From Bryobacteraceae bacterium (GTDB taxonomy: Bacteria > Acidobacteriota > Terriglobia > Bryobacterales > Bryobacteraceae): a stretch of DNA of 64,000 nucleotides. The number at the start of each line of letters is the position of its first letter. Position 1 is the stretch's first letter. The stretch lies in contig JAHCHE010000014.1 of the NCBI GenBank assembly GCA_026129905.1, forward strand, positions 1-64,000, given 5' to 3'. Positions 13,378-61,875 of this stretch are shown here, piece after piece. Both the position numbers and the translations under genes were made by a program. The notes beneath the pieces are model-generated. The model saw only the letters and a list, made by a program, of their open reading frames with translations. It ran no database searches and was not told where the DNA came from.

Positions 13378-15545
13378 CGCAGCCGGAACAGGTACACGTT
13401 CTCGGTTTCTCCAAGCGCCTCTACGCCCCAGTCCGACGGCCGCTCCGCCAGCGATGCCGTCACCGGGCCCCAGCCGTCCGGCCGCCTGGGCGCCAGAATG
13501 TAGCGGAAGCCCTCGTGGCGCAGCAGCCGGTTCACGCTGCGGCGCATGTTCAGGGCCGGCAACGGCGCCGGCTTCAGCGGTTCCGACAGCCGTTTCCAGG
13601 CGCCGTCCGGTTCCCTGCCCTCAAACACGATGTCGCCTTTTTGTTCGTGTCCAAGAAGCACCGCGCGAACGCCGGTCAAGCGCTGCGGCTGGTCGAATTC
13701 CGCCGCCAGGTATGCCTCCGGCCGCGCCGGCGCCCACGTTCCCCAGCGCGAAACCAGGTTGCCGTCGAACGCCAGGCCCGCCTCCCAGCGCATGGGCTTT
13801 GCGGTGAATCGCCACCCCGGCTGCGGCTGGACGCGATCGGAGCCTCGAAAGAACTCCACTTCGTTGACGCCCCACTGCTCCTCGGACGAGCCGGTCTGCG
13901 AGATGCGAACCGCGCGCAGTTCCCGCTCCGGCCAGTCCGCCTCGGCCTCGCAGAAAACGCCGGTCTGAATCACGATGCCGATTTTCAAGGCGTAGCCCGC
14001 CCGGTCGCCCGACGCGGACTGCCACGGCGCCACCGCCACCGCGTTGACGTACGCGTTCGTGGTTCCTGCCAGGTCCAGCACGCGCTCGCCGGCGGGGACG
14101 TGCCGGTTCACCATCTCGGCCGGCCGGTATTCCCAAAGCGCGCGCCGCAGGTAGTCCTGCTCCGGCTCCAGCCGCAACGCCGCCCGCCAAGGAAAGCCCC
14201 TGAGACGCCAGGCGTCGCGATCCGCGTACAGGCCCGCGGCGGGTGGAAGGCATACAAGGGCGTGAAACGCCGCGCAGGCTAGCGCAAACCGTCGCGGCAG
14301 CGCGATCGCGAGACCGAGCGCGAGAAAGACGAGGCTCGGCATGACGAAGCGCGCGCCGATGTTGAACAGCCACGGCGCAGCCATCAGTCCGGCAGCCGCC
14401 AGGACGATTCTCCCCTCTTTACGGCGCAGCGCCAACAGCGCCAGCGGCGCCAGCAGGAAGACCGGCCCGGTGAGCCCTTGCAGACGCATCCCGCGCACCG
14501 TGATCTCCAACGGCAGCGTCCCCGGCGTCACGCCCTGGTAGGAGCGCAGGTCCCGTCCCAGGTTCTGTTCGGTAACGACGTGAAAGTGGCGGTTCGGAAA
14601 CAGGCTGTTGAACAACGGCGCGAACGGGTTGCGCGTCCAGATCAGGTTGCGCCCCATCCATGGCGCGATCGTCAGCGCCGCACCCAGCAGCGCGGCGGCC
14701 GCGGCCTTCCGTCGCCGCCGGACAACCGCCCATCCGATCACCGGCGGCGCCACCACCAGCCCCGTGAACTTGATCGCGTAGCAGAAGCCCGCCGTCAGTC
14801 CCGCCAAAAACAGGAGCCGGTCGTCGCGCTCCTGCTCCCACGCCAGCGCGAGGTGGAACGCGGCGAGCGCGTAGAACACCAGCGCCGCGTCGTTGTATGC
14901 CGCCGCCCCGCTTGCGCCAACCACCGGCGAACAGAAGTAAAGGACCGCCGCGGCGCCCGGGACCCACTCGGGAACTCGCAGCCTCCGGCCAGTGGCGAAC
15001 AACAGTGGTATCGTAGCCGCGAGGAACGCCAGGTGAACCAACTTCGCCGCCGAGTGACGCCCGATGGCGAACGCGAAAACGAACAGCATCTCCAGACCCT
15101 GCGGCAGAATTTCGTAGAAGCCGATGCGTCCCGCAAAACCCCGCAGCCGCAGCCACTCGGCCGGCAGCGCCAGGTGATAGCTGTAGCCGTCCGGCTGGGT
15201 TTCAGGCGCCAGCGCGTGCACGGCGTACAGCGCCCCGTATACGGGGAGGACCACCAGCAGGAGGAGACGGGCGCCGCGGTCCGCCGGCAAAGAAGCGGAC
15301 GGCCGCCGCGGCTTTCGGCCGAGAAAGCCCAGCGCCAGCGCGGCCACCCCCAGCGCCAGAAACGCCGGCAGGGTCGCCGCCCGCGCGAGCATCAGCAGAA
15401 ACACCGCGTGGCTGAGGACCGCCGCGCCAACGGCAAGCGCGACGGAACCCGGCAGTTCGAATCTCCGGAGTAGGAATCGGCCTAGCGCGTAAGCGGAGGC
15501 GACGGGGAGAAAGCCGCCCGCCAGAATCCCAAGGACCTCAGGCAA
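13374..15545 (-). CDS. Membrane glycosyltransferase (GT39/ArnT-like) with a discoidin-like C-terminus
   Basis: This 723-residue protein has about ten hydrophobic helices over residues 1-430. An early luminal ETQPDGYSYHLALP with acidic and His residues resembles the catalytic first loop of dolichyl/polyprenyl-phosphate-dependent GT-C enzymes. The C-terminal 290 residues form a soluble beta-rich part: RAVRISQTGSSEEQWGVNEVEFF and FDGNLVSRWGTW are strongly reminiscent of F5/8 type C (discoidin) carbohydrate-binding folds. It would transfer a sugar from a lipid carrier on the outer face of the inner membrane. The start TTG 15545 is uncertain. Confidence 0.75.
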   Translation of the reverse strand: MPEVLGILAGGFLPVASAYALGRFLLRRFELPGSVALAVGAAVLSHAVFLLMLARAATLPAFLALGVAALALGFLGRKPRRPSASLPADRGARLLLLVVLPVYGALYAVHALAPETQPDGYSYHLALPAEWLRLRGFAGRIGFYEILPQGLEMLFVFAFAIGRHSAAKLVHLAFLAATIPLLFATGRRLRVPEWVPGAAAVLYFCSPVVGASGAAAYNDAALVFYALAAFHLALAWEQERDDRLLFLAGLTAGFCYAIKFTGLVVAPPVIGWAVVRRRRKAAAAALLGAALTIAPWMGRNLIWTRNPFAPLFNSLFPNRHFHVVTEQNLGRDLRSYQGVTPGTLPLEITVRGMRLQGLTGPVFLLAPLALLALRRKEGRIVLAAAGLMAAPWLFNIGARFVMPSLVFLALGLAIALPRRFALACAAFHALVCLPPAAGLYADRDAWRLRGFPWRAALRLEPEQDYLRRALWEYRPAEMVNRHVPAGERVLDLAGTTNAYVNAVAVAPWQSASGDRAGYALKIGIVIQTGVFCEAEADWPERELRAVRISQTGSSEEQWGVNEVEFFRGSDRVQPQPGWRFTAKPMRWEAGLAFDGNLVSRWGTWAPARPEAYLAAEFDQPQRLTGVRAVLLGHEQKGDIVFEGREPDGAWKRLSEPLKPAPLPALNMRRSVNRLLRHEGFRYILAPRRPDGWGPVTASLAERPSDWGVEALGETENVYLFRLR

Positions 15546-22152: not shown

Positions 22153-23754
22153 ATGAAACGCATGTTCCTTTTGGTTGCCTTGCTGGCGTCCGTCGCCGTG
22201 GCGTACGCCGGGCCAAGAAAGCTCTCGCGCGATCTGGAACGGGCCGATCCCGCTCGGCAGGTGGATGTCATCATCCAGTTCAAGGGCGCCCCGGGCGAGA
22301 AGCAGAAGGACAAAGTAAAGAAACGCAGGGGCGCCTTCAAGAAAGACCTGAACGTCATCAAGGCCGGAGTCTACACGGTGCCGGCCAGCGAACTGGACGG
22401 CCTCGCCGACGACCCCGACGTCGCCTACATCTCGCCGAACCGCGAGGTCCGTCCCACAATGGATGTTTCCCGGCCGGCCCTCGGAGGCGACTTGGCGGCC
22501 AGGTACGGCTATACCGGCGCCGGCATTGGCGTCGCAGTGGTCGATTCGGGCATTTCCATGGTGTCCGACTTGTACAGGCAGGTGGTGTACAGCGAATCCT
22601 TCATCGGTCTCAGCGCAAATGAGGTCTATGGCCACGGCACGCACGTCGCCGGGATCATCGCCGGGACCGGGGCCGGTTCGTATGGCAAATACCGGGGCCT
22701 TGCCCCGGGAGTGAAGCTTGTGAATCTCCGCGTGCTTGACGACGACGGAGTCGGTACCGACGCCGCGCTGATCGGCGCCATCAGCCGGGCCATTGAACTG
22801 AAGAGCCGGTACAACATTCGCGTCCTCAACCTTTCCGTTGGCCGGCCGGTCTACGAAAGCTATCTCGACGATCCTCTCTGCCAAGCGGTGGAGCAAGCCT
22901 GGCAGGCCGGCATCGTCGTGGTCGTGGCGGCCGGCAACTTGGGCCGGGAGAACCCGTCCGGGAACCAGGGCTACGGCACGATCACTTCTCCGGGTAACGA
23001 CCCGCTGGTGATCACGGTTGGCGCAATGAAGACAGGACGGACGCCCGCCCGCGGCGATGACGTCATCGCCAGTTACAGTTCCAAGGGACCAACGGCAATC
23101 GATCGCATCCTGAAGCCCGACCTCGTGGCGCCCGGCAACCGCGTGATTTCCGTCGGGGCCAAGGGCGACAGCAAACTCGAGCAGCGGTATCCGCAGAACA
23201 AAGTGGGCTTGCTGTATTTCGAGCTGAGCGGCTCCAGCATGGCTACGCCCATGGTCAGCGCCGCCGCGGCGATGCTGCTGGAAAAGAACCCGTTCCTCAC
23301 GCCGGACCAGGTAAAGGCGCGGCTGATGAGAACCGCGTCGAAATCCTTCCCCGCCTCCACCGTGGCCACCGATCCAGCGACGGGGGCGACCTACGTGAGC
23401 TACCACGACATCTTCACTGTTGGCGCCGGATATCTGGACATCACCGCCGCCCTGGTTGACTCGACCACGGTTCGCGGTACAGCGGTTTCACCTGCGGTCA
23501 CCTTCGACCCTGTCACCAACACGGTTTCCCTGCTTCAGGCGAGCGGCGTGGTTTGGGGGACGGGCGTAGTCTGGGGCACGGGCGTCGTCTGGGGGACCAA
23601 CGTGGTCTCCGGAACCGGCGTCTGCTGGGGCACGGGCGTCGTCTGGGGTACTGGCGGCGATCCCGCCGGAACCGGGGTGATCTGGGGCACGGGCATCGTC
23701 TGGGGCACGGATGCGGTACGAGCCGAGAACATCCGGATGAATGGCGAGAAGTAA
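22153..23754 (+). CDS. Secreted subtilase (S8) with VVWGTG-repeat tail, paralogue 1
   Basis: This is a 533-residue serine protease. A signal peptide (MKRMFLLVALLASVAVAYAG) is followed by an I9-like propeptide (DVIIQFKGAPGEKQKDKVKK through VAYISPNREV) and the S8 domain. The triad is Asp131 (GVAVVDSG), His161 (GHGTHVAG) and Ser362 (GSSMATPM), all intact. After about residue 460 the chain becomes a string of WGTG hexapeptides (GVVWGTG and variants, one with NPE-like GGDPAGTG insert) and ends IRMNGEK. ATG 22153 is the start matching the signal peptide; GGAGA lies 12 bases upstream. The next paralogue begins 17 bases after its stop. Confidence 0.93.
   Translation: MKRMFLLVALLASVAVAYAGPRKLSRDLERADPARQVDVIIQFKGAPGEKQKDKVKKRRGAFKKDLNVIKAGVYTVPASELDGLADDPDVAYISPNREVRPTMDVSRPALGGDLAARYGYTGAGIGVAVVDSGISMVSDLYRQVVYSESFIGLSANEVYGHGTHVAGIIAGTGAGSYGKYRGLAPGVKLVNLRVLDDDGVGTDAALIGAISRAIELKSRYNIRVLNLSVGRPVYESYLDDPLCQAVEQAWQAGIVVVVAAGNLGRENPSGNQGYGTITSPGNDPLVITVGAMKTGRTPARGDDVIASYSSKGPTAIDRILKPDLVAPGNRVISVGAKGDSKLEQRYPQNKVGLLYFELSGSSMATPMVSAAAAMLLEKNPFLTPDQVKARLMRTASKSFPASTVATDPATGATYVSYHDIFTVGAGYLDITAALVDSTTVRGTAVSPAVTFDPVTNTVSLLQASGVVWGTGVVWGTGVVWGTNVVSGTGVCWGTGVVWGTGGDPAGTGVIWGTGIVWGTDAVRAENIRMNGEK
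23547..23733 (+). repeat. 18-bp repeats coding the WGTG tail of subtilase 1
   Basis: About nine diverged copies of a unit coding G-V-V-W-G-T (for example GGCGTCGTCTGGGGGACC) are seen in frame, with variants SGTG, CWGTG and a GGDPAGTG spacer. They are part of the gene, not a CRISPR or intergenic repeat. Confidence 0.85.
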
Positions 23755-23771
23755 GCGCCAGAGGACTTACC

Positions 23772-25514
23772 ATGACGCCGGACTGCACATTGATACCAAC
23801 TACGATGTCGAAGATTCAGACTGCGCTCCTCGTTGTGTGCCTGGCCGTCCTCATTCCCGCTCAGGCGCAGGCCAAGCCTCGAAAAGTGGCCCGCGACTTC
23901 GACCGGGTCGCGCCCGGCGCCACGGTCGACGTCATCGTGCAATTCACGGTGGCGCCGCCGGACCGTCAGCGGCACAAAATCGAGAGGCGGGGCGGCCGCC
24001 ACAAGCGCTCGCTTCCCCTGATTCGCGCGGGGGTATATTCGCTGTCCTTATCGGAAGTGAAGATTTTGAGCAACGATCCGGACATCGCTTATATCTCGCC
24101 GGACCGGCCTGTAATGGCGTCGCTGGACTACGCACATCCGGCGGTCGGCGCCGGCATAGCCCGCTCCTATGGCTGGACCGGCAATGGCATCGGCGTGGCC
24201 GTCATCGACAGCGGCATTCTGGCGGTGTCCGATCTGGAGGGTACAAATCACGCCAAGAGCCAGGTCGTCTATTCCGAAAGCTTCGTCGGATCAAGCGCCC
24301 AGGATGCTTACGGTCATGGAACTCATGTGGCCGGCATTCTGGCCGGCAACGGAAAGAAATCGACGGGTCCGGCGCACACCAGAACATTCCTGGGGGTCGC
24401 GCCGGATGTGAAACTGCTCAACCTCAAGGTACTCGATGACCACGGCGCCGGGACCGACAGCGCCGTCATTGCCGCTATCGAACGGGCCATCCAGCTCAAA
24501 GAGGCCTACAACATCCGAGTCATGAACCTTTCGCTGGGCCGTCCGGTATTCGAAAGCTACGCTGTCGATCCCCTTTGCCAGGCCGTCGAACGCGCCTGGA
24601 AGGCCGGCATCGTCGTTGTCGTCGCCGCCGGAAATTGGGGAAGAGACAACTCCGCCGGCAACGACGGTTACGCTACGATCGCTTCGCCCGGCAACGACCC
24701 CTACGTGATCACCGTCGGCGCAATGAAGACCATGGGCTCCGCCTCTCGCGAGGACGACCAGATCGCCACGTACAGTTCCAAGGGGCCAACCGCGATCGAC
24801 CACTACTTGAAGCCCGACCTCGTGGCCCCCGGCAACCGGATCGTCTCGCTCACCGAGGCCGTCACCGCGTTATACAGGCAGTCCAGCGCCAACCTTGTGC
24901 CTTTGTCGTATTACAACCGGGGCGGCGGCGCGGGCTATTCTCCCAAGTATTTTCGGCTTAGCGGCACCAGCATGGCGGCGCCGATGGTGAGCGGCGCCGC
25001 GGCTCTCCTGCTCGAGAAGCAACCATCCCTTACGCCCGATGGCGTAAAGGCGCGGCTCATGCGTTCGGCCGCCAAGACATTCCCCGCCCAAAGCGTCACA
25101 ACGGATCCGGCCACTGGCGAGACCTTCACCAGCCAGTACGACGTCTTCACCGCCGGCGCGGGCTATCTCGACATTTGGGCAGCCCTAAACGACACCGAAA
25201 CGTCAACAGGGGCCGCCCTCTCCCCAAGGGCTGCCTACGAGGAGGCGTCCGGAACTGTGCGCCTGCTTTGCGACTCCGGCGCCGCCTGGGGAAGCGACGC
25301 CGTTTGGGGGACGTGCGCCACCGGCGCCGTCTGGGGCACAGACGTGTTCCTGTCGGGTACCGGCGCCGTTCGGGGGACCGGAGCGGTCTGGGGAACCCAG
25401 TCCGCCACCGGTTTTGGCGCGGTCTGGGGAACAGGGGCCGTCTGGGGCAGCGGCGCGGTTTGGGGCACGAACTCTCTGCAGGGGTTGGCCATCAGTCTGA
25501 ACGGCGAGAACTGA
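23772..25514 (+). CDS. Secreted subtilase (S8) with WGTG-type tail, paralogue 2
   Basis: This is a 580-residue protease with the same plan as paralogue 1. The signal region is KIQTALLVVCLAVLIPAQAQA, the I9-like propeptide runs from DVIVQFTVAPPDRQ to IAYISPDRPV, and the S8 domain has Asp146 (VAVIDSG), His182 (GHGTHVAG) and Ser400 (GTSMAAPM). The tail is more diverged: AVWGT, AAWGS and AVRGT units with Cys-containing and SATGFG spacers, ending ISLNGEN. GAGG stands 7 bases before ATG 23772; an ATG at 23805 is the alternative. It is co-transcribed with paralogue 1. Confidence 0.92.
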   Translation: MTPDCTLIPTTMSKIQTALLVVCLAVLIPAQAQAKPRKVARDFDRVAPGATVDVIVQFTVAPPDRQRHKIERRGGRHKRSLPLIRAGVYSLSLSEVKILSNDPDIAYISPDRPVMASLDYAHPAVGAGIARSYGWTGNGIGVAVIDSGILAVSDLEGTNHAKSQVVYSESFVGSSAQDAYGHGTHVAGILAGNGKKSTGPAHTRTFLGVAPDVKLLNLKVLDDHGAGTDSAVIAAIERAIQLKEAYNIRVMNLSLGRPVFESYAVDPLCQAVERAWKAGIVVVVAAGNWGRDNSAGNDGYATIASPGNDPYVITVGAMKTMGSASREDDQIATYSSKGPTAIDHYLKPDLVAPGNRIVSLTEAVTALYRQSSANLVPLSYYNRGGGAGYSPKYFRLSGTSMAAPMVSGAAALLLEKQPSLTPDGVKARLMRSAAKTFPAQSVTTDPATGETFTSQYDVFTAGAGYLDIWAALNDTETSTGAALSPRAAYEEASGTVRLLCDSGAAWGSDAVWGTCATGAVWGTDVFLSGTGAVRGTGAVWGTQSATGFGAVWGTGAVWGSGAVWGTNSLQGLAISLNGEN

Positions 25515-25624
25515 AGCGGAACGGAAGTTGCAAGCGACCCGCGGCCGTCCGGGGATTACTTCTCCGGGTCGGCCGCGATCCATTTCTATACAACGCTCGC
25601 GGGCGGCGCCGATCCGTCCCCCTC

Positions 25625-25670
25625 CGGACACGATGTCCGCCCGCTTGCAGACCTTCGGACACAATGTCCG
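25625..25670. promoter_or_regulatory. Tandem perfect palindromes, site pair 2 (putative activator sites)
   Basis: CGGACA-CGA-TGTCCG (25625-25639) and CGGACA-CAA-TGTCCG (25656-25670) are perfect inverted repeats 31 bp apart, close to three helical turns. They lie in the 258-bp gap before the HD-GYP gene, 62 bases upstream of the GG of the element at 25732. The rest of the gap shows no coding signal. Confidence 0.75.
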
Positions 25671-25731
25671 CTCGCAGCCTGAAAGGCACGGTTTTCTAGT
25701 TGAAACTAAAGAGTTTTGGACAACAAACGAT

Positions 25732-25746
25732 CGGCCCTCGGCTTGC
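25732..25746 (+). promoter_or_regulatory. Putative sigma54 promoter of the HD-GYP/GGDEF gene
   Basis: CGGCCCT-N4-TTGC keeps GG-N10-GC and TTGC but matches the full consensus at only 8 of 11 positions. The AAGGAG site and ATG 25773 follow at the same distance as in the first subtilase operon. Confidence 0.35.
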
Positions 25747-25772
25747 CTGAACCAGGAAGGAGCTTATCCGGC

Positions 25773-28220
25773 ATGACCCTTAAAGCCCGGCTGTATCTTG
25801 CCGCCATCATCGTCTCGGGCTCGATGACGTTGATCTGGCAACTGGCCAACTGGGAATCGTCGAACCTGAACAAGTTCGGCGTGTACCTAGTGATGACGAT
25901 GGTGGCCTCGGTGCTCAAGATCCACCTGCCGGGCATCACGGGAACGATGTCGGTGTATTTTCTGTTCGTCCTGATCGGCATCACCCAGCTCAGCTTGCCG
26001 GAGGTCATGGTGGTGTGCTCCGCCGCAACCCTGCTCCAGTGTTTCTGGCACGCCACCCGGCGCCCGCGGCCCATCCAACTGGCTTTCAACCTAGCGAGCA
26101 ATGCTTTGGCGGTAGCCAGCGCCGCGTGCGCCTATTACTGGAACGACCTGACGCACTGGGGGTTCGGCCTTCCCGTCCGCCTGGCGGCAATGGCCCTGGT
26201 CTTCTTTGTCCTGAACACCGGCCTGGTAGCGGTGGTGATCGCGCTGACCGAAGGCAAGCCGGCGCGCCGCCTCTGGCATGAGTGCTATTTCTGGTGCTTT
26301 CCTTATTACCTGCTCGGCGCCTCGATGGCAGGCGCATTCAAGGCGATCAGCGATCTGGCGGGGTGGGAGACGTCGGTGTTGATCCTGCCGATCTTCTACG
26401 TCGTCTACGGCTCGTACCGGCTGTATCTCGGCCGTCTTCAGGATGAGAAATACCACGCCGAACAGGTCGCCGCGCTTCACCTGCGCACCATCGAAGCCCT
26501 TGCGCTCGCCATCGACGCCAAGGACCACACCACGCATCAGCACCTCCAGCGCGTCCAGGTCTACACGATGGAGGTCGCCAAGGAACTTCACCTGCCCTCC
26601 GAGGAACTGCGCGCCCTCGAAGCCGCTACCCTGCTGCACGACATCGGCAAGCTCGCCGTCCCCGAACACATCATCTCGAAGCCAGGCAAACTCACTCCGG
26701 AAGAGTTCGAGAAGATGAAGATCCATCCGGTGATCGGGGCCGAGATCCTGGAGCGGGTGAAGTTCCCCTACCCGGTTGTGCCGATCGTATTGGCGCACCA
26801 CGAGAAATGGGACGGTACCGGCTACCCGTTCGGACTCAGAGGCGAGGAAATCCCGCTCGGCGCCCGCATCCTTTCCGCGGTGGACTGTCTGGATGCGCTG
26901 TCGTCGGATCGCCCCTACCGCCGCGCGCTCCCGCTGGAGGAGGCCGTCAAGTTCATCCAGTCGGAAGCGGGCAAGAGCTACGACCCCGGGGTCGTGGACA
27001 TTCTGGTTCGCCGCTATCGCGATTTCGAACGCCTGGCGCAAAGCGGCCGCAAAGGCGGGGAACTGGCAATGCTTTCGCGCGACGTCAAAGTCGACCGCGG
27101 CCAAGCCCCGGCGACCGGACTGGATACGTCGGCTGCCGGTCAGACCGGGTCCTCGGCGCCCCCCGCCGAGTTCCTGATGTCCATCGCCGCGGCCCGCCAG
27201 GAAGCGCAGGCCCTATTCGAGTTGGCCCAGACGCTGGGCAGTTCCCTGAGCTTGAACGACACCCTTTCGGTGATGGCCACCCGCCTGAACAAGCTGACAC
27301 CCTTCGATGCCATGGTGGTTTACCTGGTTCGAGACGGATTCCTCCAGGCCGAGTATGCGACGGGCGAGGAAGTCCGCCTGCTCTGCTCGCTCCGGGTTCC
27401 CGTCGGCCAGGGTCTGTCCGGATGGGTTGTTGAGAACCGGCAGCCCATCGTGAACGGCTCGCCCGTCCTGGAGTTCGCCTTCGCCGAGAACACCCCCTCT
27501 TGCTGCAAGCTCTCCTCGGCGCTGCTGGTCCCGCTCGAAAGCGCCGATTGCGTCGTTGGAGTCCTCGCCCTCTACAGCCTCGAGCGCGATGCTTTTTCGC
27601 GGGATCAACTGCGCGTCCTGCAGGCCGTCAGCTCGAAACTGAGCGCCTCGGTAGAAAACGCCTGCAAGTATGAGCAGGCCGAGTCCTCGGCCACCACGGA
27701 CTACTTGACGAACCTGCCGAATGCCCGCTCGCTGTTCGTTCACCTGGATGGAGAGGTCGCGCGCTGCGCCCGCACCAATACTCCGCTCGCGATCGTTGTC
27801 TGCGACCTCGACGGGTTTAAGCAGGTGAACGACCGATTCGGACACCTTGCGGGCAACGAAGTTCTAAAGCTCGTTGCCGCGGGTCTGCGCGAGTGCTGCC
27901 GCGAATACGATTACGTCGCCCGGATGGGCGGCGACGAGTTCGTCATCGTTCTACCCGGCCTCCCCGCTTCCTCGGCGTCGGCGCGGATCGAGGAATTCGA
28001 TCGCGTCGCTGTGGAAGTCGGAATGCGAGTCTGCGGCGAGGAGATCCTGTCCCTCAGCGCCGGACTGGCCTTCCACCCCGAGGATGGCCGGCGCGCCGAG
28101 GATCTGCTGGCGGAAGCCGACCGCCGCATGTACAAGGAGAAGCAGGAGCGCAAGCGCGTGCGCTCGCTCTTCAACCTGGCCGGCCGGCAAACAGGCGTCT
28201 CAACGGTGATGGTGCAGTAG
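25773..28220 (+). CDS. Membrane HD-GYP / GAF / GGDEF protein (c-di-GMP turnover)
   Basis: This is an 815-residue inner-membrane signalling enzyme. Six to seven membrane helices occupy residues 1-215. The HD-GYP phosphodiesterase domain covers about 230-435, with HDIGK at 289-293 and HHEKWDGTGYP from 342. A GAF sensor domain lies at about 470-630. The GGDEF diguanylate cyclase domain covers about 640-800, with an intact GGDEF at 719-723 and the inhibitory I-site RxxD (REYD, 710-713) five residues before it. Both catalytic signatures are present, so it may make and break c-di-GMP. AAGGAG lies 10 bases before ATG 25773. The serine hydrolase follows 47 bases later. Confidence 0.93.
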   Translation: MTLKARLYLAAIIVSGSMTLIWQLANWESSNLNKFGVYLVMTMVASVLKIHLPGITGTMSVYFLFVLIGITQLSLPEVMVVCSAATLLQCFWHATRRPRPIQLAFNLASNALAVASAACAYYWNDLTHWGFGLPVRLAAMALVFFVLNTGLVAVVIALTEGKPARRLWHECYFWCFPYYLLGASMAGAFKAISDLAGWETSVLILPIFYVVYGSYRLYLGRLQDEKYHAEQVAALHLRTIEALALAIDAKDHTTHQHLQRVQVYTMEVAKELHLPSEELRALEAATLLHDIGKLAVPEHIISKPGKLTPEEFEKMKIHPVIGAEILERVKFPYPVVPIVLAHHEKWDGTGYPFGLRGEEIPLGARILSAVDCLDALSSDRPYRRALPLEEAVKFIQSEAGKSYDPGVVDILVRRYRDFERLAQSGRKGGELAMLSRDVKVDRGQAPATGLDTSAAGQTGSSAPPAEFLMSIAAARQEAQALFELAQTLGSSLSLNDTLSVMATRLNKLTPFDAMVVYLVRDGFLQAEYATGEEVRLLCSLRVPVGQGLSGWVVENRQPIVNGSPVLEFAFAENTPSCCKLSSALLVPLESADCVVGVLALYSLERDAFSRDQLRVLQAVSSKLSASVENACKYEQAESSATTDYLTNLPNARSLFVHLDGEVARCARTNTPLAIVVCDLDGFKQVNDRFGHLAGNEVLKLVAAGLRECCREYDYVARMGGDEFVIVLPGLPASSASARIEEFDRVAVEVGMRVCGEEILSLSAGLAFHPEDGRRAEDLLAEADRRMYKEKQERKRVRSLFNLAGRQTGVSTVMVQ

Positions 28221-28267
28221 CGATGCGCCGGAATCCTCGCGTACCCTGCCGCCGCTAGAGGTCCTAT

Positions 28268-29764
28268 ATGACGTCCACCCGTTTAGACCCTTGCCGCCTG
28301 GACGCGGCGGCGCAATCGATCGTTGAGGCCTCGGGGGCACCCGGCTTGGCGGTGGCGGTCCGAGCCCCGGGCGGCGAATATCTTCAAGGCTATGGCTACG
28401 CGGATGTGGAGCGCGCCCAGCGGGTGACGCCGTCCACCCAATTCCGCATTGCCTCGCTTACCAAAACCTTCACCGCGACCGGGGTCGCGCTGCTGGTAGA
28501 AGAAGGCAAGCTTCACTGGGACGACCAGGTCGAGCGGCGCCTGCCCTTCTTCGAAATGGCGGACCGCGACGCCTGTGGCCGCCTCACTCTCCGCGACCTC
28601 TTGTGCCATCGCGCCGGTTTCGGCTGGCTGGATCCGCTCTGGTATAACTCGCCCTGGGACCGTTGCGCCGTGTTGCGCCGCGCCGGACGCGCGCCGCTCG
28701 AAGATGGTTTCCGGCGCGGTTTCCGCTACAGCAATATCGGCTTTATACTCGCCGGCGAAGTGGCCGGACGGGCGGCCGCCGCAACTTATGAAGAGTTCGT
28801 CCACCACAGGCTGCTCGCCCCTCTCGGCATGCGCGCCAGCGGTTTCGGTCTCGGGCCCGGAATGGCCGCCGGATACCAGCGGCAAGGGCGGCGCGACGTC
28901 GTGCCCGTACCGCCCGTCGCCGTCGACAAGGCCAACCCGGCGTGCGGCTTGCGGTCGTCGGCCAGGGACTTGGCGAAATGGCTGGGGCCGTTTGTGAATT
29001 ACGGCTATGCGGACGGAAAACGGTTGATCGGGCCGGCCGCCTTGCGGGAACTGCTGACGCCCCACGTCGAGATCGGCCCCGACGAGGATGCGCGCGTCTG
29101 CTCGTACTTTCCGGCGACCCGGCGGCTCCACTATTGCCTGGGTTGGTTTCACTCCGACTACAGAGGCAGGACGCTGGTCTCCCACTCGGGTTCCTTGCCC
29201 GGCTATCGGGCCCACCTGGCTGTCCTCCCGGGGGAAGGCATCGGCATCGCCGCGGTAGCTAACCTGAGTCTCACCTGGGCGCCCGACGCCATGATCTACA
29301 GCGCCCTCGATCGACTCCTTGGCGAATCGCCGGTCGATTGGGCGGCCCACTTCGAGCAGACCCGCTCCCCATACTCCGACGCCGCCGCGGATCCCGATCC
29401 CTGCGCCGGCAGCCATCATCCGGATCCACAATCGTTCTGCGGCTCGTATTCGCACCCCGCGTACGGCGATCTCACCATCGGCCGCTCGGCCGGAACCTTG
29501 ACCTTCGAGTGGACCAACTACCGAACGCGTATGCGCCCCACGGGAGACGACGGCTTCCTGCTGGCGGACCTGGGCTGCGCATTGCTCGCCGATAACCGCC
29601 AGGTCCGCTTCGTGCGCGGCGACGCGGGCGAGGTCGAGGGACTGTACTTCCTGGACGTCCGATTTCACCGCGTCACGGCGCCGGAACTCCCGGGCCGCTT
29701 TCCCGCGCTCGTTTCCCCTTGTTTCAGCCCGACCGGACAGTTCGTCCCCGCAAGCCAGGCGTAA
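28268..29764 (+). CDS. Serine hydrolase, beta-lactamase class C / PBP4*-like
   Basis: This is a 498-residue protein of the penicillin-binding/esterase-type fold. The catalytic SxxK is SLTK in RIASLTKTFTATG, the Tyr motif is YSNIGFILAGEV, and the third box is HSGSLPGY. A C-terminal 120-residue beta domain follows (FCGSYSHPAYGDLTIG), as in D-aminopeptidase and EstB-like relatives. No signal peptide is visible, so it may be cytoplasmic. AGAGG precedes ATG 28268. It probably shares the HD-GYP transcript. Its 3' end contains part of the third palindrome pair. Confidence 0.85.
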   Translation: MTSTRLDPCRLDAAAQSIVEASGAPGLAVAVRAPGGEYLQGYGYADVERAQRVTPSTQFRIASLTKTFTATGVALLVEEGKLHWDDQVERRLPFFEMADRDACGRLTLRDLLCHRAGFGWLDPLWYNSPWDRCAVLRRAGRAPLEDGFRRGFRYSNIGFILAGEVAGRAAAATYEEFVHHRLLAPLGMRASGFGLGPGMAAGYQRQGRRDVVPVPPVAVDKANPACGLRSSARDLAKWLGPFVNYGYADGKRLIGPAALRELLTPHVEIGPDEDARVCSYFPATRRLHYCLGWFHSDYRGRTLVSHSGSLPGYRAHLAVLPGEGIGIAAVANLSLTWAPDAMIYSALDRLLGESPVDWAAHFEQTRSPYSDAAADPDPCAGSHHPDPQSFCGSYSHPAYGDLTIGRSAGTLTFEWTNYRTRMRPTGDDGFLLADLGCALLADNRQVRFVRGDAGEVEGLYFLDVRFHRVTAPELPGRFPALVSPCFSPTGQFVPASQA

Positions 29765-29780
29765 CCGGGCTGGTTGTCCG
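29734..29780. promoter_or_regulatory. Degenerate palindromes, site pair 3
   Basis: CGGACA-GTT-CGTCCC (29734-29748) and CGGGCT-GGT-TGTCCG (29766-29780) are two-mismatch versions of the motif, 32 bp apart. The first lies inside the end of the serine hydrolase gene. The proximal copy ends 65 bases before the GG of the element at 29845. Confidence 0.4.
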
Positions 29781-29844
29781 GTCGTCGTTGTCCGCTATAT
29801 ATCGCAACCTTCCTCGAATCAGTAGCTTGCCTGCGCTCGGCCGA

Positions 29845-29859
29845 TGGCGCGACGCGTGC
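29845..29859 (+). promoter_or_regulatory. Putative sigma54 promoter of subtilase 3
   Basis: TGGCGCG-N4-GTGC followed by T matches the -24/-12 consensus at 9 of 11 positions with GG-N10-GC spacing. It has the same deviations in position as the element at 22109. Confidence 0.45.
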
Positions 29860-29911
29860 TCTTCTAACGGCGTCCGTGAGAACGAGCAGGACTTACCTAA
29901 CAGGAAACCAA

Positions 29912-31570
29912 GTGCGCATGCGAATCATTCAAATCATGGGGCTGCTCGGCAGCCTCACGGTCACACTGTCCGCCGGTCCAAAGCTGGCCCGGGACCTGGA
30001 ATCGATCGCGCCCTCGAAGGAGATCGACGTCATCATCCAGTTCACTGCCAAGGCCACCGATAAGCACAACCAGAAGGTTAGCAGCGAGGGCGGCCAGTTC
30101 AGGAAGAAGCTGGATCTGGTGAAAGGCGGCGTCTATCGCATCCCCGCCGGTCAACTCAGGAAATTGGCCGAAGACCCGGAGATCAGGCAGATCACGCCCG
30201 ACCGCCAGGTGCAAGGCGCGCTCGACCATTCTCGCGGAGCGTCGGTGGCGACTATCGCCCAGTCTTACGGGTGGACCGGCGCCGGCGTGGGCGTTGCGGT
30301 CATCGACAGCGGTTATGTGGCCCACCCCGATATCGGCGCCCGCGTCGTCTACTCGGCAAGCTTTGTCGACAACAACTCGGTTGACCGCTATGGACACGGC
30401 ACGCATGTGGCCGCCGCCATCGCCAGCACCGGGGGCGCGGCGCCTTTCATGAAGAAATACAAGGGGATTGCTCCGGGCGCTAATCTCGTTATCTTGAAGG
30501 CGCTGAATGCCGAGGGCCTGGGCTCCGACAGCGCCGTGATCGCCGCCATCGAGCGGGCCATCGCGCTGAAGGCCACCTATAATATCCGCGTGATGAACCT
30601 TTCGCTCGGCCGGCCGATCGTTGAGAGCTATGCGGACGACCCGCTGTGCCAGGCGGTCGAACGCGCCTGGGAGGCCGGCATCGTCGTGGTGGTCGCCGCG
30701 GGGAACGAGGGCCGAAACAACTCGGCAGGCAACGAGGGTTACGGCACCATTCTCTCTCCGGCCAACAACCCCCGCGTCATCACGGTCGGCGCGATGAAGG
30801 CGATGGATACCACTTCCCGTGGCGACGACCAGATCGCCAGCTACTCCTCGAAAGGCCCCAGCGCCATCGATCACGTGGCCAAGCCCGACCTCGTGGCCCC
30901 TGGAAACCGCGTCGTGGCGGCCATCAACGGAGCGTCCTACCTCGCAACCAACTATCCCGCCAATGCGGTCTCCGTGCCCGGCGCGACCGGTCCCTATTTC
31001 CGACTCAGCGGTACCAGCATGGCCACCCCGGTGGTCAGCGGCTCCGTCGCGCTGCTGCTGGAGAAAACGCCGTCGCTGACTCCCGACCAGGTAAAGGCGC
31101 GGCTGATGAAAACCGCGACGAAGAGTTTCCCGGCCTCCACGGTGGCCACCGATCCCGTCACCGGGCAGACCTTCACCAGTTACTATGACCTGTTTACCGT
31201 CGGCGCCGGCTACCTGGACATTTGGGCGGCGCTGAACAACGACGATCTCGCCACCGGCTCGGCCGCCTCGCCCGCAGCCGTCTACGACCCGCAGTCGAAC
31301 ACGGTTTCTCTCGTATTCCCGAACGGCGTGGTGTGGGGAACGGGCGTGGTTTGGGGTACCGGAGTGGTCTGGGGTACCGGCGTGGTTTGGGGTACCGGAG
31401 TCGTTTGGGGTACCGGAGTCGTTTGGGGTACCGGCGCCAACCCCGAAGGCACCGGCGTGGTCTGGGGTACCGGCGTGGTCTGGGGTACCGGCGTGGTCTG
31501 GGGTACCGGCGTCACGTGGGGTACCGGAATTGTATGGGGTACGTCATCCGTGGCGCTCCGCGGCGAGTGA
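29912..31570 (+). CDS. Secreted subtilase (S8) with regular VVWGTG tail, paralogue 3
   Basis: This is a 552-residue protease. A short signal (IIQIMGLLGSLTVTLSAG) is followed by the I9-like propeptide (DVIIQFTAKATDKHNQ to IRQITPDRQV) and an S8 domain with Asp132, His162 (GHGTHVAA) and Ser369 (GTSMATPV). The tail has about twelve nearly identical VVWGTG units with one ANPEGTG spacer. GTG 29912 has AGGA 6 bases upstream; ATG 29918 is the alternative. The stretch AGGACTTACC near 29889 is also found just before paralogue 2, a trace of duplication. It is the last gene before a two-way terminator. Confidence 0.92.
   Translation: MRMRIIQIMGLLGSLTVTLSAGPKLARDLESIAPSKEIDVIIQFTAKATDKHNQKVSSEGGQFRKKLDLVKGGVYRIPAGQLRKLAEDPEIRQITPDRQVQGALDHSRGASVATIAQSYGWTGAGVGVAVIDSGYVAHPDIGARVVYSASFVDNNSVDRYGHGTHVAAAIASTGGAAPFMKKYKGIAPGANLVILKALNAEGLGSDSAVIAAIERAIALKATYNIRVMNLSLGRPIVESYADDPLCQAVERAWEAGIVVVVAAGNEGRNNSAGNEGYGTILSPANNPRVITVGAMKAMDTTSRGDDQIASYSSKGPSAIDHVAKPDLVAPGNRVVAAINGASYLATNYPANAVSVPGATGPYFRLSGTSMATPVVSGSVALLLEKTPSLTPDQVKARLMKTATKSFPASTVATDPVTGQTFTSYYDLFTVGAGYLDIWAALNNDDLATGSAASPAAVYDPQSNTVSLVFPNGVVWGTGVVWGTGVVWGTGVVWGTGVVWGTGVVWGTGANPEGTGVVWGTGVVWGTGVVWGTGVTWGTGIVWGTSSVALRGE
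31325..31545 (+). repeat. Near-identical 18-bp repeats in subtilase 3 tail
   Basis: The unit GGCGTGGTCTGGGGTACC and its one- or two-base variants occurs about twelve times in frame, much more uniform at the DNA level than in the two paralogues. This fits recent expansion by slippage or recombination. Confidence 0.9.
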
Positions 31571-58470: not shown

Positions 58471-61400
58471 TCACCAGTTTCCGGTCACCGGCGCAACGCC
58501 GGGCCAGCCGAACCCGAAGCTCCTGTCCGTGCCCGATCCGTTCCAGACCCCGTTGCCATTTAGGTCCAGGTACCACGCCCCCTCGTGGAACACGCCCACC
58601 TTCGTCTTGCCGTTGGCATTCCAGTCCCCGACCACCGCCGTCACCCCGGCCCAGCCGAACAACGACTGCCGGTCCACGCCCGCTTCCCACGCCCCATTCC
58701 CGTTCATGTCCAGGTACCACCAGCCGTCCTTGAATACCCCAACCTTCGTCTTGCCGTCTCCGCTCCAGTCGCCCACCACCGCCGTCACGCCCGCCCATCC
58801 GAACCCGTACGCCCGGTCGCTCCCCGTTCCATCCCAATTCCCATTGCCGTTGTAATCCAGATACCACGCCCCCTCGTGGAATACCCCGATCTGCGTCTTG
58901 CCGTCCCCGTTCCAGTCCCCCACCACCGGCGTCACCCCAGGCCAGCCGAACATCGACGCCCGGTCCACGTTTGCTTCCCATACCCCATTTCCGTTCATGT
59001 CCAGGTGCCACCAGCCGTCCTTGAACACCCCAACCTTCGTCTTGCCGTCCCCGTTCCAGTCGCCCACCACCGCCGTCACGCCCGGCCATCCGAACCCGTA
59101 CGCCCGGTCCGTCGTCGTTCCGTTCCAGGCCCCGTTGCCGTTGTAGTCCAGGTACCACGCGCCGTCGAGGAACACCCCGATCTGCGTCTTGCCGTCCCCG
59201 TTCCAGTCCCCCAACACCGGCATCGTTCCCGCCCAGCCGAAGCTCGCGCGGCGGTCCGAGGCCGGTTCCCAAACCCCGTTGGCGTTCACGTCCAGGTACC
59301 ACTCGCCGTTGAGAAACACCCCCGCCTTGGCCAGCCGCGCCACCGGCGCCGCCGTGGTGAACGACCAGATGTTGGAGTTCGTCGTACCAACCCCGTTCCT
59401 GGCCACCACCCGCCAGTAGTACGTCGTCCCCTTGCTCAGATTCTCCACCTGGTAATTCGTGGCCGTCGTGTTGCCCAACGGTGGCGGCGGCGAAGCCACC
59501 CCGAAATGCACGTCGTAGGACATCGCCCCACTGGCCGCGCTCCAACGCAACGTCACGCTCGTCGCCTGCCCCTTGGCCCCGCTGGCCGGCGTCGGATTCC
59601 CCGGCTTGGCGGGCAGTTGCGGCGCCGCCTGCGTGGTGAACGACCACACTGCCGAGGTCTTCGTGCCCCCGGCGTTGCGCGCCACCACCTTCCAGTAATA
59701 CCGTTGTCCCGCCGCCAGCGCGCCCGGAGCGTAGCTGGTTCCCGTCACGTTCTGCGCCAGCGGCGGCGACGTCGCCGTGCCGAAGTACACGTCATGCGAG
59801 GTCGCGCCCGATCCGCCCGTCCAACTCAGCGTCGGCGCCAGGGCGATGCCGGTAGCTCCGTTCGAAGGCGACGGCGCGCTCGGCGTCCCCGGCGCGGGAG
59901 GCAGGACGACGGTGCAACCCGCCGTCCCGGTTCCTTTCATCCCTGAGGCGCCGCTGGTGGCGATGGCGTTGACGCTGTAGGTCCCCACCCCCGTCCCGGC
60001 GGGCGGCGTCTTGGTCAGCGTCGCGCTCAACGATGCGCCGGGATCGATGGTCAGTGACGCCGGCGAAAAGCTCCCCGCCGGCCACCCGTTCGGTACGCTC
60101 GAACTCAGATCGAACGACGCCGCGGCGCACCCTGCCGAATCGTTGTTCTTCACAGTCACCGTATAGCTGACCGGGTTGCCCGCCTGCGTGCTTGGGTTCG
60201 ACGGCGTCATCGTAACCGCCGGCGCCGCCCGCGTGCACGGCGTGGCCCCGTACGTCACCGTCAGGTTCAGCATGCCGTTAACGATGCCATCCACCCTCAG
60301 GCTCAGATTCGTGTACGGGTCCGTCCAGGTCTGACCAGCCATCAGCGGCGAATCCATGCGGTTGGCGGTGGCGGGCTTGAAATCGAGCAGGTGCGTATAC
60401 CCGCCAGTGTAGGAATCGCGGTAATGGACGAGAGCGGAGTCGAAGTGGTTCGTATTGTAGATGCCTTGCTTGCGGATGAACTCCACAACCAGCGTGGCGT
60501 TGTCGGCGGGCGCGCCGCGCCGGATACGCAGCGCCTTCAGTCCCGCCGGCTGCGTCCCGTACCATGGCAGCGAATAGGCGCCGCTCGTCGATACGTCCAG
60601 GTAATTCAGGCCCGGCTTCAGCCAACCCAGTTGCTGAATCGCATGATCGGCGTTGTAGAAGCCCAGGTTCCAGTCGCCCATTGTCGCGAAGCTGTCCCCG
60701 TACTCGGTGACATCGCCCATTACGCCGAGCGGCCCCAGCGTCTCGCCGCCGAACGTGCGGGTATTGGAATGGCGCAGCGTCAGGTTGTGTCCGACTTCGT
60801 GCGTGGTCAGATGGACGCCGGCAGAGCGGCTTGCCATCTGATCGGCGCGCTGCCACGACCACGAATAATTGCAGGCGCCATCGCCCGGGCAGGTGGAGGA
60901 GAAACAACCCACGGTTGCCAGCCCCGCCCACTGGCTGCATGCGCCGTTGTTCGGAGCGACGACGACAGTACGGGAGAAATCGTTGTAGTCGACGTCGCCG
61001 TCAGCCGCCGCCCAGGCCGCCTCTACCATCGCGAAATAGTCGCAGTTGTTGTCTGTGTTGTAATCCGCCGGCAGGTTGTAGGGACCCACAATCTTGAGCC
61101 CCCCGGGCCCTGAGCGGTTCACCCAAAGCTGGCCGTCGGAATTCTGCCGCCAGAAATCGTCTACCGACAGGTCCGTGGCGCTCTGATCCCCGCCGCCGGC
61201 ATTGCCGAACATCACCCCCGTAATGAAATTTCGCGTCATCGACGTCGGCAGCGGGTAACTTTTCAGATTCACCAGAATCACTACGATGTTCTGCGGACCG
61301 GTTGTCAAGCACGCCGCCGCGGCCGGCGCCACCTGCGCCTCCTCCACCGCTATCCGATCGCCCGCTTGCAAGCCGCGCACCGTAAGCGTATCGCCGCTAT

Positions 61401-61875
61401 GGAATGCCGGTTGAGGACCGGCGAAATGAAGGTACGCCGTCCTGCCGCCGGTCCGCATCCGCACGATCGATTCTGACGTAGCGAAGTTCACGCCGTCCTG
61501 AACGATGTACTCCACCTGACCCTGCCAGGCGCCATGCGCTTCGAGCCGGCTACGAAGCTCTGGCGCCGCGCCGGCGATCCGTTCAATCAGGTCGGGGGGA
61601 AAAGCCACCAGGAGCGCCTGGCGGGGGTCGCGCTCGATCAATGCGCTCAGCGCGGCTAGCCGCTCGTCGAACAACGTGGTCGCCTGCGCAGCGGCGACGG
61701 ACTGCGCGCTGATCCCAGCGGTCTGCGCCACGGCGCCGAACTGCAAGACTCGCGCGTTCAATTCGCGGAGTTGGTCCGATTGCGCGTTGCTCTGGGCCAG
61801 GAGCGTGGAATCCGCGGCAAAGGAGGCAAGAAGCGCCAGGGGAACGGCGCGCATCTGGCTAAACGACTTCGTCAT
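58471..61875 (-). CDS. Multidomain M11-like secreted metalloprotease with Asp-rich repeats
   Basis: This is a 1134-residue exoprotein. A signal region (VPLALLASFAADSTLLAQ) precedes an N-terminal domain to about 190. The peptidase domain (about 190-520) has the zinc site HEVGHNLTLRHS, as in gametolysin-like M11 enzymes. A NEW3-type domain (about 530-650) and two fibronectin-III domains (about 660-750 and 760-845, WSGGSGATSHDVYFG type) follow. The end is six repeats of about 46-48 residues, each GVFxxGxWYLDxNxNGxW then GDWNGDGKT. The Asp/Asn/Gly loops suggest calcium binding. Probably degrades glycoproteins or cell-wall material. Confidence 0.88.
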   Translation of the reverse strand: MTKSFSQMRAVPLALLASFAADSTLLAQSNAQSDQLRELNARVLQFGAVAQTAGISAQSVAAAQATTLFDERLAALSALIERDPRQALLVAFPPDLIERIAGAAPELRSRLEAHGAWQGQVEYIVQDGVNFATSESIVRMRTGGRTAYLHFAGPQPAFHSGDTLTVRGLQAGDRIAVEEAQVAPAAAACLTTGPQNIVVILVNLKSYPLPTSMTRNFITGVMFGNAGGGDQSATDLSVDDFWRQNSDGQLWVNRSGPGGLKIVGPYNLPADYNTDNNCDYFAMVEAAWAAADGDVDYNDFSRTVVVAPNNGACSQWAGLATVGCFSSTCPGDGACNYSWSWQRADQMASRSAGVHLTTHEVGHNLTLRHSNTRTFGGETLGPLGVMGDVTEYGDSFATMGDWNLGFYNADHAIQQLGWLKPGLNYLDVSTSGAYSLPWYGTQPAGLKALRIRRGAPADNATLVVEFIRKQGIYNTNHFDSALVHYRDSYTGGYTHLLDFKPATANRMDSPLMAGQTWTDPYTNLSLRVDGIVNGMLNLTVTYGATPCTRAAPAVTMTPSNPSTQAGNPVSYTVTVKNNDSAGCAAASFDLSSSVPNGWPAGSFSPASLTIDPGASLSATLTKTPPAGTGVGTYSVNAIATSGASGMKGTGTAGCTVVLPPAPGTPSAPSPSNGATGIALAPTLSWTGGSGATSHDVYFGTATSPPLAQNVTGTSYAPGALAAGQRYYWKVVARNAGGTKTSAVWSFTTQAAPQLPAKPGNPTPASGAKGQATSVTLRWSAASGAMSYDVHFGVASPPPPLGNTTATNYQVENLSKGTTYYWRVVARNGVGTTNSNIWSFTTAAPVARLAKAGVFLNGEWYLDVNANGVWEPASDRRASFGWAGTMPVLGDWNGDGKTQIGVFLDGAWYLDYNGNGAWNGTTTDRAYGFGWPGVTAVVGDWNGDGKTKVGVFKDGWWHLDMNGNGVWEANVDRASMFGWPGVTPVVGDWNGDGKTQIGVFHEGAWYLDYNGNGNWDGTGSDRAYGFGWAGVTAVVGDWSGDGKTKVGVFKDGWWYLDMNGNGAWEAGVDRQSLFGWAGVTAVVGDWNANGKTKVGVFHEGAWYLDLNGNGVWNGSGTDRSFGFGWPGVAPVTGNW
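58474..59335 (-). repeat. Six about 143-bp coding repeats in the M11-like gene
   Basis: The repeats differ between odd and even copies (KDGWW/EANVD type and HEGAW/NGTGSD type), so the array looks like a 286-bp pair amplified about three times. The DNA is highly similar across copies (for example GGCGACTGGAACGGGGACGG on the minus strand). Confidence 0.85.

Follow-up and report, generated by a model that had tools for sequence, protein, structure and literature searches.

The window analysed here, a stretch of 64,000 nucleotides of a Bryobacteraceae bacterium of the phylum Acidobacteriota (assembly GCA_026129905.1, contig JAHCHE010000014.1, positions 1 to 64,000), encodes three S8 subtilases that end in tails of tryptophan-containing hexapeptide repeats. 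These repeats probably form a rod-like domain for assembly or anchoring, absent from all libraries searched. The architecture of the tailed proteins, their distribution, the selection on the repeat, and a recurrent neighbouring gene for a MASE9-like membrane signalling protein were established. The reading favoured here, with a confidence that falls a little short of even, is that the tail is a homotypic solenoid by which an exported protease with a link to membrane signalling is assembled or anchored.

Repeat tails, selection on the unit and the catalytic domain

The repeat unit, derived from 730 units of 83 tails, has the logo [SNGT]-[AVI]-[VIA]-W-G-[STDN], and the tails contain from 3 to 20 Trp units. 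Tandem arrays of 18 bp were detected by Tandem Repeats Finder in all three window tails; together with the excess of synonymous over nonsynonymous differences (pS > pN), they place these tails beyond chance. The original prediction, made from the window sequence, had described all tails as runs of VVWGTG-type units with a shared spacer, GDPAGTG or NPEGTG. Hexapeptide arrays are indeed present in all three proteins, but subtilase 2 carries GAVWGT units, often interrupted, and the spacer is present in two of the three proteins, subtilases 1 and 3. The similar last segment (MNGEK, LNGEN, and LRGE) proved to be general: 62 of the 83 tails, truncated proteins being scored as misses, end in G[ED] followed by at most two residues. 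By eye, the GE[NK] end lines up with a final hexapeptide without Trp (ALNGEN against VVWGDN). The spacings between units that differ from six are mostly 12 (43 cases), 13 (25), and 11 (11) across the 83 tails and look as though a single unit had degenerated in place; runs are interrupted by single degenerate units, and a spacing of 13 followed by 12 is frequent.

Positions 1 and 6 of the unit are mainly polar or small (position 1 in 667 of 732 units), and positions 2 and 3 are mainly hydrophobic (position 3 in 703 of 732). In some tails position 1 is occupied by Arg, Gln, or Glu, which suggests that it faces the solvent; if the strand alternates, Trp (position 4) and position 2 would point inward.

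In all 49 arrays of at least five units, two of which belong to subtilase 3, pS exceeded pN, with a median pS of 0.63 and a median pN of 0.053 within arrays, the latter biased low by a unit-picking pattern in which Trp is fixed and four further positions are constrained. The 11 units of locus L288 comprise 11 distinct DNA sequences and encode one peptide. Among 82 tails, identity at the four variable positions was 0.77 within a tail and 0.30 between tails, and the identity of synonymous codons was 0.478 within a tail, 0.412 as expected from the codon use of the gene itself, and 0.361 between tails. Because the within-tail codon identity is near the expectation from codon use, DNA homogenisation explains little of the likeness of the units. 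These values suggest that each protein preserves its own unit largely through selection on the protein, as would be required by like-on-like stacking or by binding to a single repeated ligand.

The three proteases are located at 22153-31570 as predicted, the third beginning with the ATG at 29918 (Table 1). The Peptidase_S8 family (PF00082) was the sole Pfam match (E ≤ 1) of each, with scores of 166.7, 180.1, and 168.9 bits for subtilases 1 to 3, all above the gathering score of 21.8, and it was matched by 56/56 aligned tailed proteins. In the alignment of 56 rows (A1), which includes the window proteins, the catalytic Asp, His, Asn, and Ser are substituted in no row and gapped in 8, 7, 3, and 0 rows, respectively. 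Judged by this alignment, all four residues are intact in the three window S8 subtilases, in agreement with the complete triad (Asp/His/Ser) reported for them. Five further Pfam families occurred among the 56 proteins, with 1 to 3 members each. The best NCBIfam matches of the window subtilases were mycosin and other S8 models, all under their cut-offs, of which the mycosin match of subtilase 3 extends to residue 482, slightly into the tail.

Each window subtilase has, by eye, a signal-like N-terminus. The Pfam I9 family (PF05922) did not match any of the three at E ≤ 1 and weakly matched 3 of the 56 aligned proteins. In the AlphaFold2 model of subtilase 3, a ferredoxin-like propeptide with the order beta-alpha-beta-beta-alpha-beta precedes the catalytic domain (predicted local distance difference test, pLDDT, about 98), and the alignment of the model with pro-subtilisin E begins at residue 33 (3whi; Z 40.9, root-mean-square deviation (rmsd) 1.6, 336 residues). 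The I9-like propeptide ascribed to all three proteases is thus supported by the modelled fold for subtilase 3, though the Pfam family misses it in each of them. A short hairpin (residues 452-465) was modelled just before the tail of subtilase 3.

Table 1. Features of the window related to the tailed subtilases.
Feature	Position	Strand	Description
S8 subtilase 1	22153..23754	+	533 aa; Asp131/His161/Asn262/Ser362; propeptide and hexapeptide tail
S8 subtilase 2	23805..25514	+	569 aa; Asp135/His171/Asn277/Ser389
S8 subtilase 3	29918..31570	+	550 aa from ATG 29918; Asp129/His159/Asn262/Ser366, numbered from the codon at 29921
Tail of subtilase 1	23545..23751	+	3 hexapeptides, degenerate unit, 2 hexapeptides, GGDPAGT, 2 hexapeptides, MNGEK end
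Tail of subtilase 2	25278..25511	+	GAVWGT units with interruptions; spacers DVFLSGT and QSATGF; LNGEN end
Tail of subtilase 3	31325..31567	+	6 GVVWGT units, GANPEGT spacer, 5 units, LRGE end
Membrane signalling protein	25716..28220	+	MASE9-like membrane domain ~25761-26438; HD-GYP-type HD ~26508-26990; GAF ~27246-27647; GGDEF ~27690-28154

Distribution of tailed subtilases and the MASE9-like neighbour

The genome containing the window has nine tailed S8 genes on five contigs, among 13 S8 matches, with pairs on contigs C6, C22, and C10. Two pairs (L030, 4958-8484, and L031, 5688-9233) lie on different contigs of this genome and have very similar tails; of the DNA fetched around each, only that of L030 contains a membrane-sensor gene. 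Subtilase 3 gave 39 matches at E ≤ 1e-60 in 9 of 41 genomes, and the tail was seen in 34 of them; the remaining five (G003:C331:2-751, G009:C92, G009:C47, G009:C141:12417, and G022:C239) have no visible tail (contig end, broken, or none shown).

At E ≤ 1e-3, a tail query matched 105 of the 396 genomes searched in the phylum of the window, and a second one matched 54 of 297 genomes at E ≤ 1e-5 in an overlapping sample. At this second cut-off, E ≤ 1e-5, matches were found in 17/151 genomes of the Armatimonadetes-labelled phylum, to which L288 belongs, against 8/299, 1/296, and 3/301 genomes of three other phyla, labelled only by the record of the central genome (Cupriavidus, Streptomyces, and Chloroflexi). 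The S8 domain and the tail shared one open reading frame (ORF) in 52/53 fetched loci from the phylum of the window (two overlapping samples), 11/12 from the Armatimonadetes-labelled phylum, and 0/15 from the other three phyla. One stretch from the phylum sample of the Chloroflexi-labelled genome (L413) is short, with GETIVWG units that switch frames and no S8 in the locus, and may be a decayed tail.

A pattern scan of named genomes matched at least 117 stretches, and 80 loci were examined. The S8 domain and the tail were in frame in 52 loci, nearly all with acidobacterial titles; three (L260, L266, and L281) have S8 upstream in another frame, one (L236) starts inside the tail with its head beyond the DNA, and 24 were without S8 in the matching frame; of these 24, L249 alone was read in every frame of the matching strand. 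In L260, L266, and L281 the tail or most of it is out of frame with the catalytic domain, and an N lies within the L260 tail; assembly error, decay, and slippage are alike possible. Among the 56 loci that carry S8 and a tail or start inside the tail, two titles are non-acidobacterial, L259 (Acidimicrobiia) and L288 (Armatimonadetes), and the sample from the phylum of the L259 genome repeats contig places of the phylum of the window.

A viral origin of the repeat was rejected. A loose pattern gave at least 120 stretches on viral contigs, and the 80 loci read were low-complexity or short frames; none of the 15 stretches found with a stricter pattern had the S8 serine motif in its best frame. On a viral contig (L082), the match at 14208-14266 belongs to an ORF with AQVWGN/AQVYGD-like hexapeptides; this repeat differs from that of the tails but shares its VWG core. 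An SWSG-type tail was sought in nine genomes only, which is no proper test of Actinobacteria; three of the nine matched, and among the eight loci read no S8 protein with such a tail was seen.

The gene between subtilases 2 and 3, absent from the original prediction on the tails, encodes a MASE9-like signalling protein and is the best clue to the function of the tailed proteases. Clustering of ORFs around tailed subtilase genes exposed it as a recurrent neighbour, seen at roughly one in four to one in three of the loci studied: a MASE9-like ORF was found in 25 of 78 tailed-gene loci, in 19 of them downstream of a tailed gene, at most 1 kb away and in the same orientation. Against MASE9 (PF20972) the window protein scored 18.7, under the cut-off of 24.3, and 5 of the 23 neighbour proteins scanned were above it (L033, L246, L225, L034, and L036, 29.2-32.7). 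Output domains vary among relatives, which may have HD-GYP with GAF or a PAS hybrid kinase (L030 and L230); the membrane domain lacks an output domain in L240, L225, L244, and L265, and the ORFs of L256, L034, and L223 run to the edge of the locus DNA. In nine genomes, 9 of 25 MASE9-like genes have a subtilase-3-type S8 gene at a distance of at most 3 kb, where random placement would give 0.14; the tail was seen in eight of these nine S8 genes, and the G022 contig stops short of it. The MASE9-like domain occurred in all nine genomes with subtilase 3 matches at E ≤ 1e-60 and in 10 of the 32 others. Other recurring neighbours, named by eye (TonB-like receptors, transporters, and others), were observed at 5 to 9 loci each. 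In the window, a beta-lactamase-fold protein (PF00144) is encoded between the signalling gene and subtilase 3 (28268-29764, +).

Predicted structure and possible roles of the tail

The solenoid was predicted for a single array, the uninterrupted 17-unit array of the relative L271. AlphaFold2, run with 33 array rows, assigned EEEE-- to every hexapeptide (best mean pLDDT 80.6, predicted template modelling score (pTM) 0.66). VIA-align superposed the model on bactofilin 6rib_A with an rmsd of 2.2 Å over 94 residues and a Z of 12.0, where the program warns that a repeat Z under about 13 may reflect a common arrangement only. Many left-handed hexapeptide proteins aligned with a Z of about 11-14 and an rmsd of about 12 Å, as a matching distance map combined with the opposite hand would give. 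The hand was judged solely from these rmsd values, the low one being to a single right-handed structure. Of 28 distances between spacers, 21 were a multiple of three units (expected 15.4; 40 of 2000 random draws reached 21), a weak periodicity from cases that are not independent. The tail is likely a three-sided solenoid, which may be of either hand.

Several observations, besides the warning, the weak periodicity, and the low bias of pN given above, weigh against a solenoid that assembles or anchors the protease. The five L271 models disagree (mean pLDDT 80.6, 62.8, 31.2, 31.1, and 29.7; two of five above 60), and the interrupted tail of subtilase 3 has a pLDDT below 50 in a model built with the 56-row alignment, in which the remainder of the protein is modelled well. 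The regular beta structure expected by the original prediction was accordingly obtained for the L271 array but not for the window tail. AlphaFold2 can also assign the wrong hand to a repeat structure. No PDB entry matched the L271 model in a Foldseek search at E ≤ 0.001; the alignment that Foldseek itself gave with 6rib_A was poor (rmsd 9.7, template modelling (TM) score 0.34). The L271 array has just four DNA variants in its 17 units and is partly a recent duplication. The partner is not obligatory: no MASE9-like ORF was seen in the locus DNA of 53/78 loci, although the DNA of 64/78 continues for 1 kb downstream. The query of the neighbour search was the domain of the window itself, and shared descent of loci inflates the counts.

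A somewhat unlikely alternative is that the tail binds a surface, a polymer, or a membrane through Trp ladders or exposed valines and docks the protease on its substrate or envelope with no polymerisation. In an alternating strand, the composition of positions 1 and 3 would expose a hydrophobic ladder on the position 1 face, and some tailed genes adjoin membrane-protein genes; however, unit identity within tails exceeds the apparent need for binding, and no known binding family was matched in Pfam or NCBIfam. It is unlikely that the tail is a signal, either as a folded solenoid or as hexapeptides released by the protease, read by the adjacent MASE9-like protein. Each protein has its own unit, alike in protein and less so in DNA, as in a multi-copy peptide precursor, and signalling proteins (HD-GYP, GGDEF, and hybrid kinase) are common among the partners, but the partners of L240, L225, L244, and L265 have no output domain, most loci show no partner, no obvious processing site was noticed by eye, and a solenoid equally explains the unit identity. 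A C-terminal pro-region or export aid, removed during secretion and without a role in the mature enzyme, is improbable: the common terminal G[ED]x might be a sorting or processing signal, but its GE[NK] form matches the Trp-less final hexapeptide, and the number of Trp units varies widely. Neutral slippage into low-complexity, disordered, functionless sequence, compatible with the low pLDDT of the window tail, the 18-bp repeats, and recent duplications such as L271, was already disfavoured and is very improbable given pS > pN in 49/49 arrays and the one peptide of L288.

Under the favoured reading, the tail would be a folded repeat domain in which each hexapeptide forms a four-residue strand ([SNGT]-[AVI]-[VIA]-W) and a Gly-polar corner. 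Each turn of the triangular beta-solenoid would probably comprise three hexapeptides, with like residues stacked. The subtilase would be exported and then activated on loss of the I9-like propeptide, a mode of activation established for subtilases. The solenoid might hold the protease in a cell-surface or matrix assembly through end-to-end or lateral homotypic stacking, and at some loci the adjacent MASE9-like protein may tie the extracellular protease to cyclic di-GMP (c-di-GMP) or phosphorelay signalling. Surface anchoring and fibre formation, both putative, fit the results. That the tailed subtilases and MASE9-like proteins constitute an undescribed outside-in module, in which the hexapeptide code of each protease (solenoid or released peptide) is read by a cognate partner with c-di-GMP turnover or phosphorelay as output, is put on the same low footing as the signal reading. 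A Trp hexapeptide kept by selection would provide materials research with a new natural solenoid, and it may connect extracellular proteolysis with c-di-GMP signalling in soil bacteria.

Elsewhere in the window, a large exported-looking protein (58471-61875, -) has a HExxH stretch and two fibronectin-like repeats, named by eye, and a C-terminal array of repeats of about 48 residues (DWNGDGKTKVGVFKDGWWYLDMNGNG...) behind DNA repeats of 144/291 bp.

Comparison with known systems

In line with the original prediction that the tail resembles no nameable domain, no characterised repeat family was found for it in Pfam or NCBIfam, and no best match was located within any window tail. Literature searches on the tail and on acidobacterial subtilases turned up no description of it; the string VVWGTG and a search on MASE9 gave no records, and six repeat strings gave none relevant by title among the matches listed. 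S8 proteases are mentioned in acidobacteria (PMC5900883, PMC6411800), and the passages concerned mention no tail. Among known proteases, the propeptide and catalytic domain of the subtilase 3 model aligned with the S8 enzyme Pro-Tk-SP (3afg; Z 45.8, rmsd 3.4, 399 residues); the comparisons with 3afg and 3whi covered the propeptide and the catalytic domain, the tail of the subtilase 3 model being of low confidence.

Neither the hexapeptide families nor the bactofilin family of Pfam matched the three window subtilases (E ≤ 1) or the 56 aligned proteins (E ≤ 0.01), and because these profile tests failed, the tail was not classed as a bactofilin or a hexapeptide transferase. Left-handed beta-helix proteins (LpxA, LpxD, PglD, and others) have the hexapeptide consensus [LIV]-[GAED]-x-x-[STAV]-x; the six-residue unit is common to both, and W-G-x-x-[AVI]-x of the tail resembles this consensus, but the tail has Trp in place of the aliphatic residue and the rmsd is large. 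Bactofilins polymerise spontaneously, and one was modelled as a right-handed three-sided beta-helix, according to PMC9507126. The modelled L271 array is close to 6rib_A of this family (2n3d, 6rib) in VIA-align, whereas the Foldseek alignments were poor (TM 0.34-0.45), and bactofilins are cytoplasmic cytoskeletal proteins. Curli CsgA and other repeat amyloids are built of short extracellular beta repeats with a unit length other than that of the tail. The CsgA fibril (8enq) was the top Foldseek row for the L271 model (E 0.012), but with a TM of 0.20, and, unlike in curli, the repeat considered here is attached to an enzyme.

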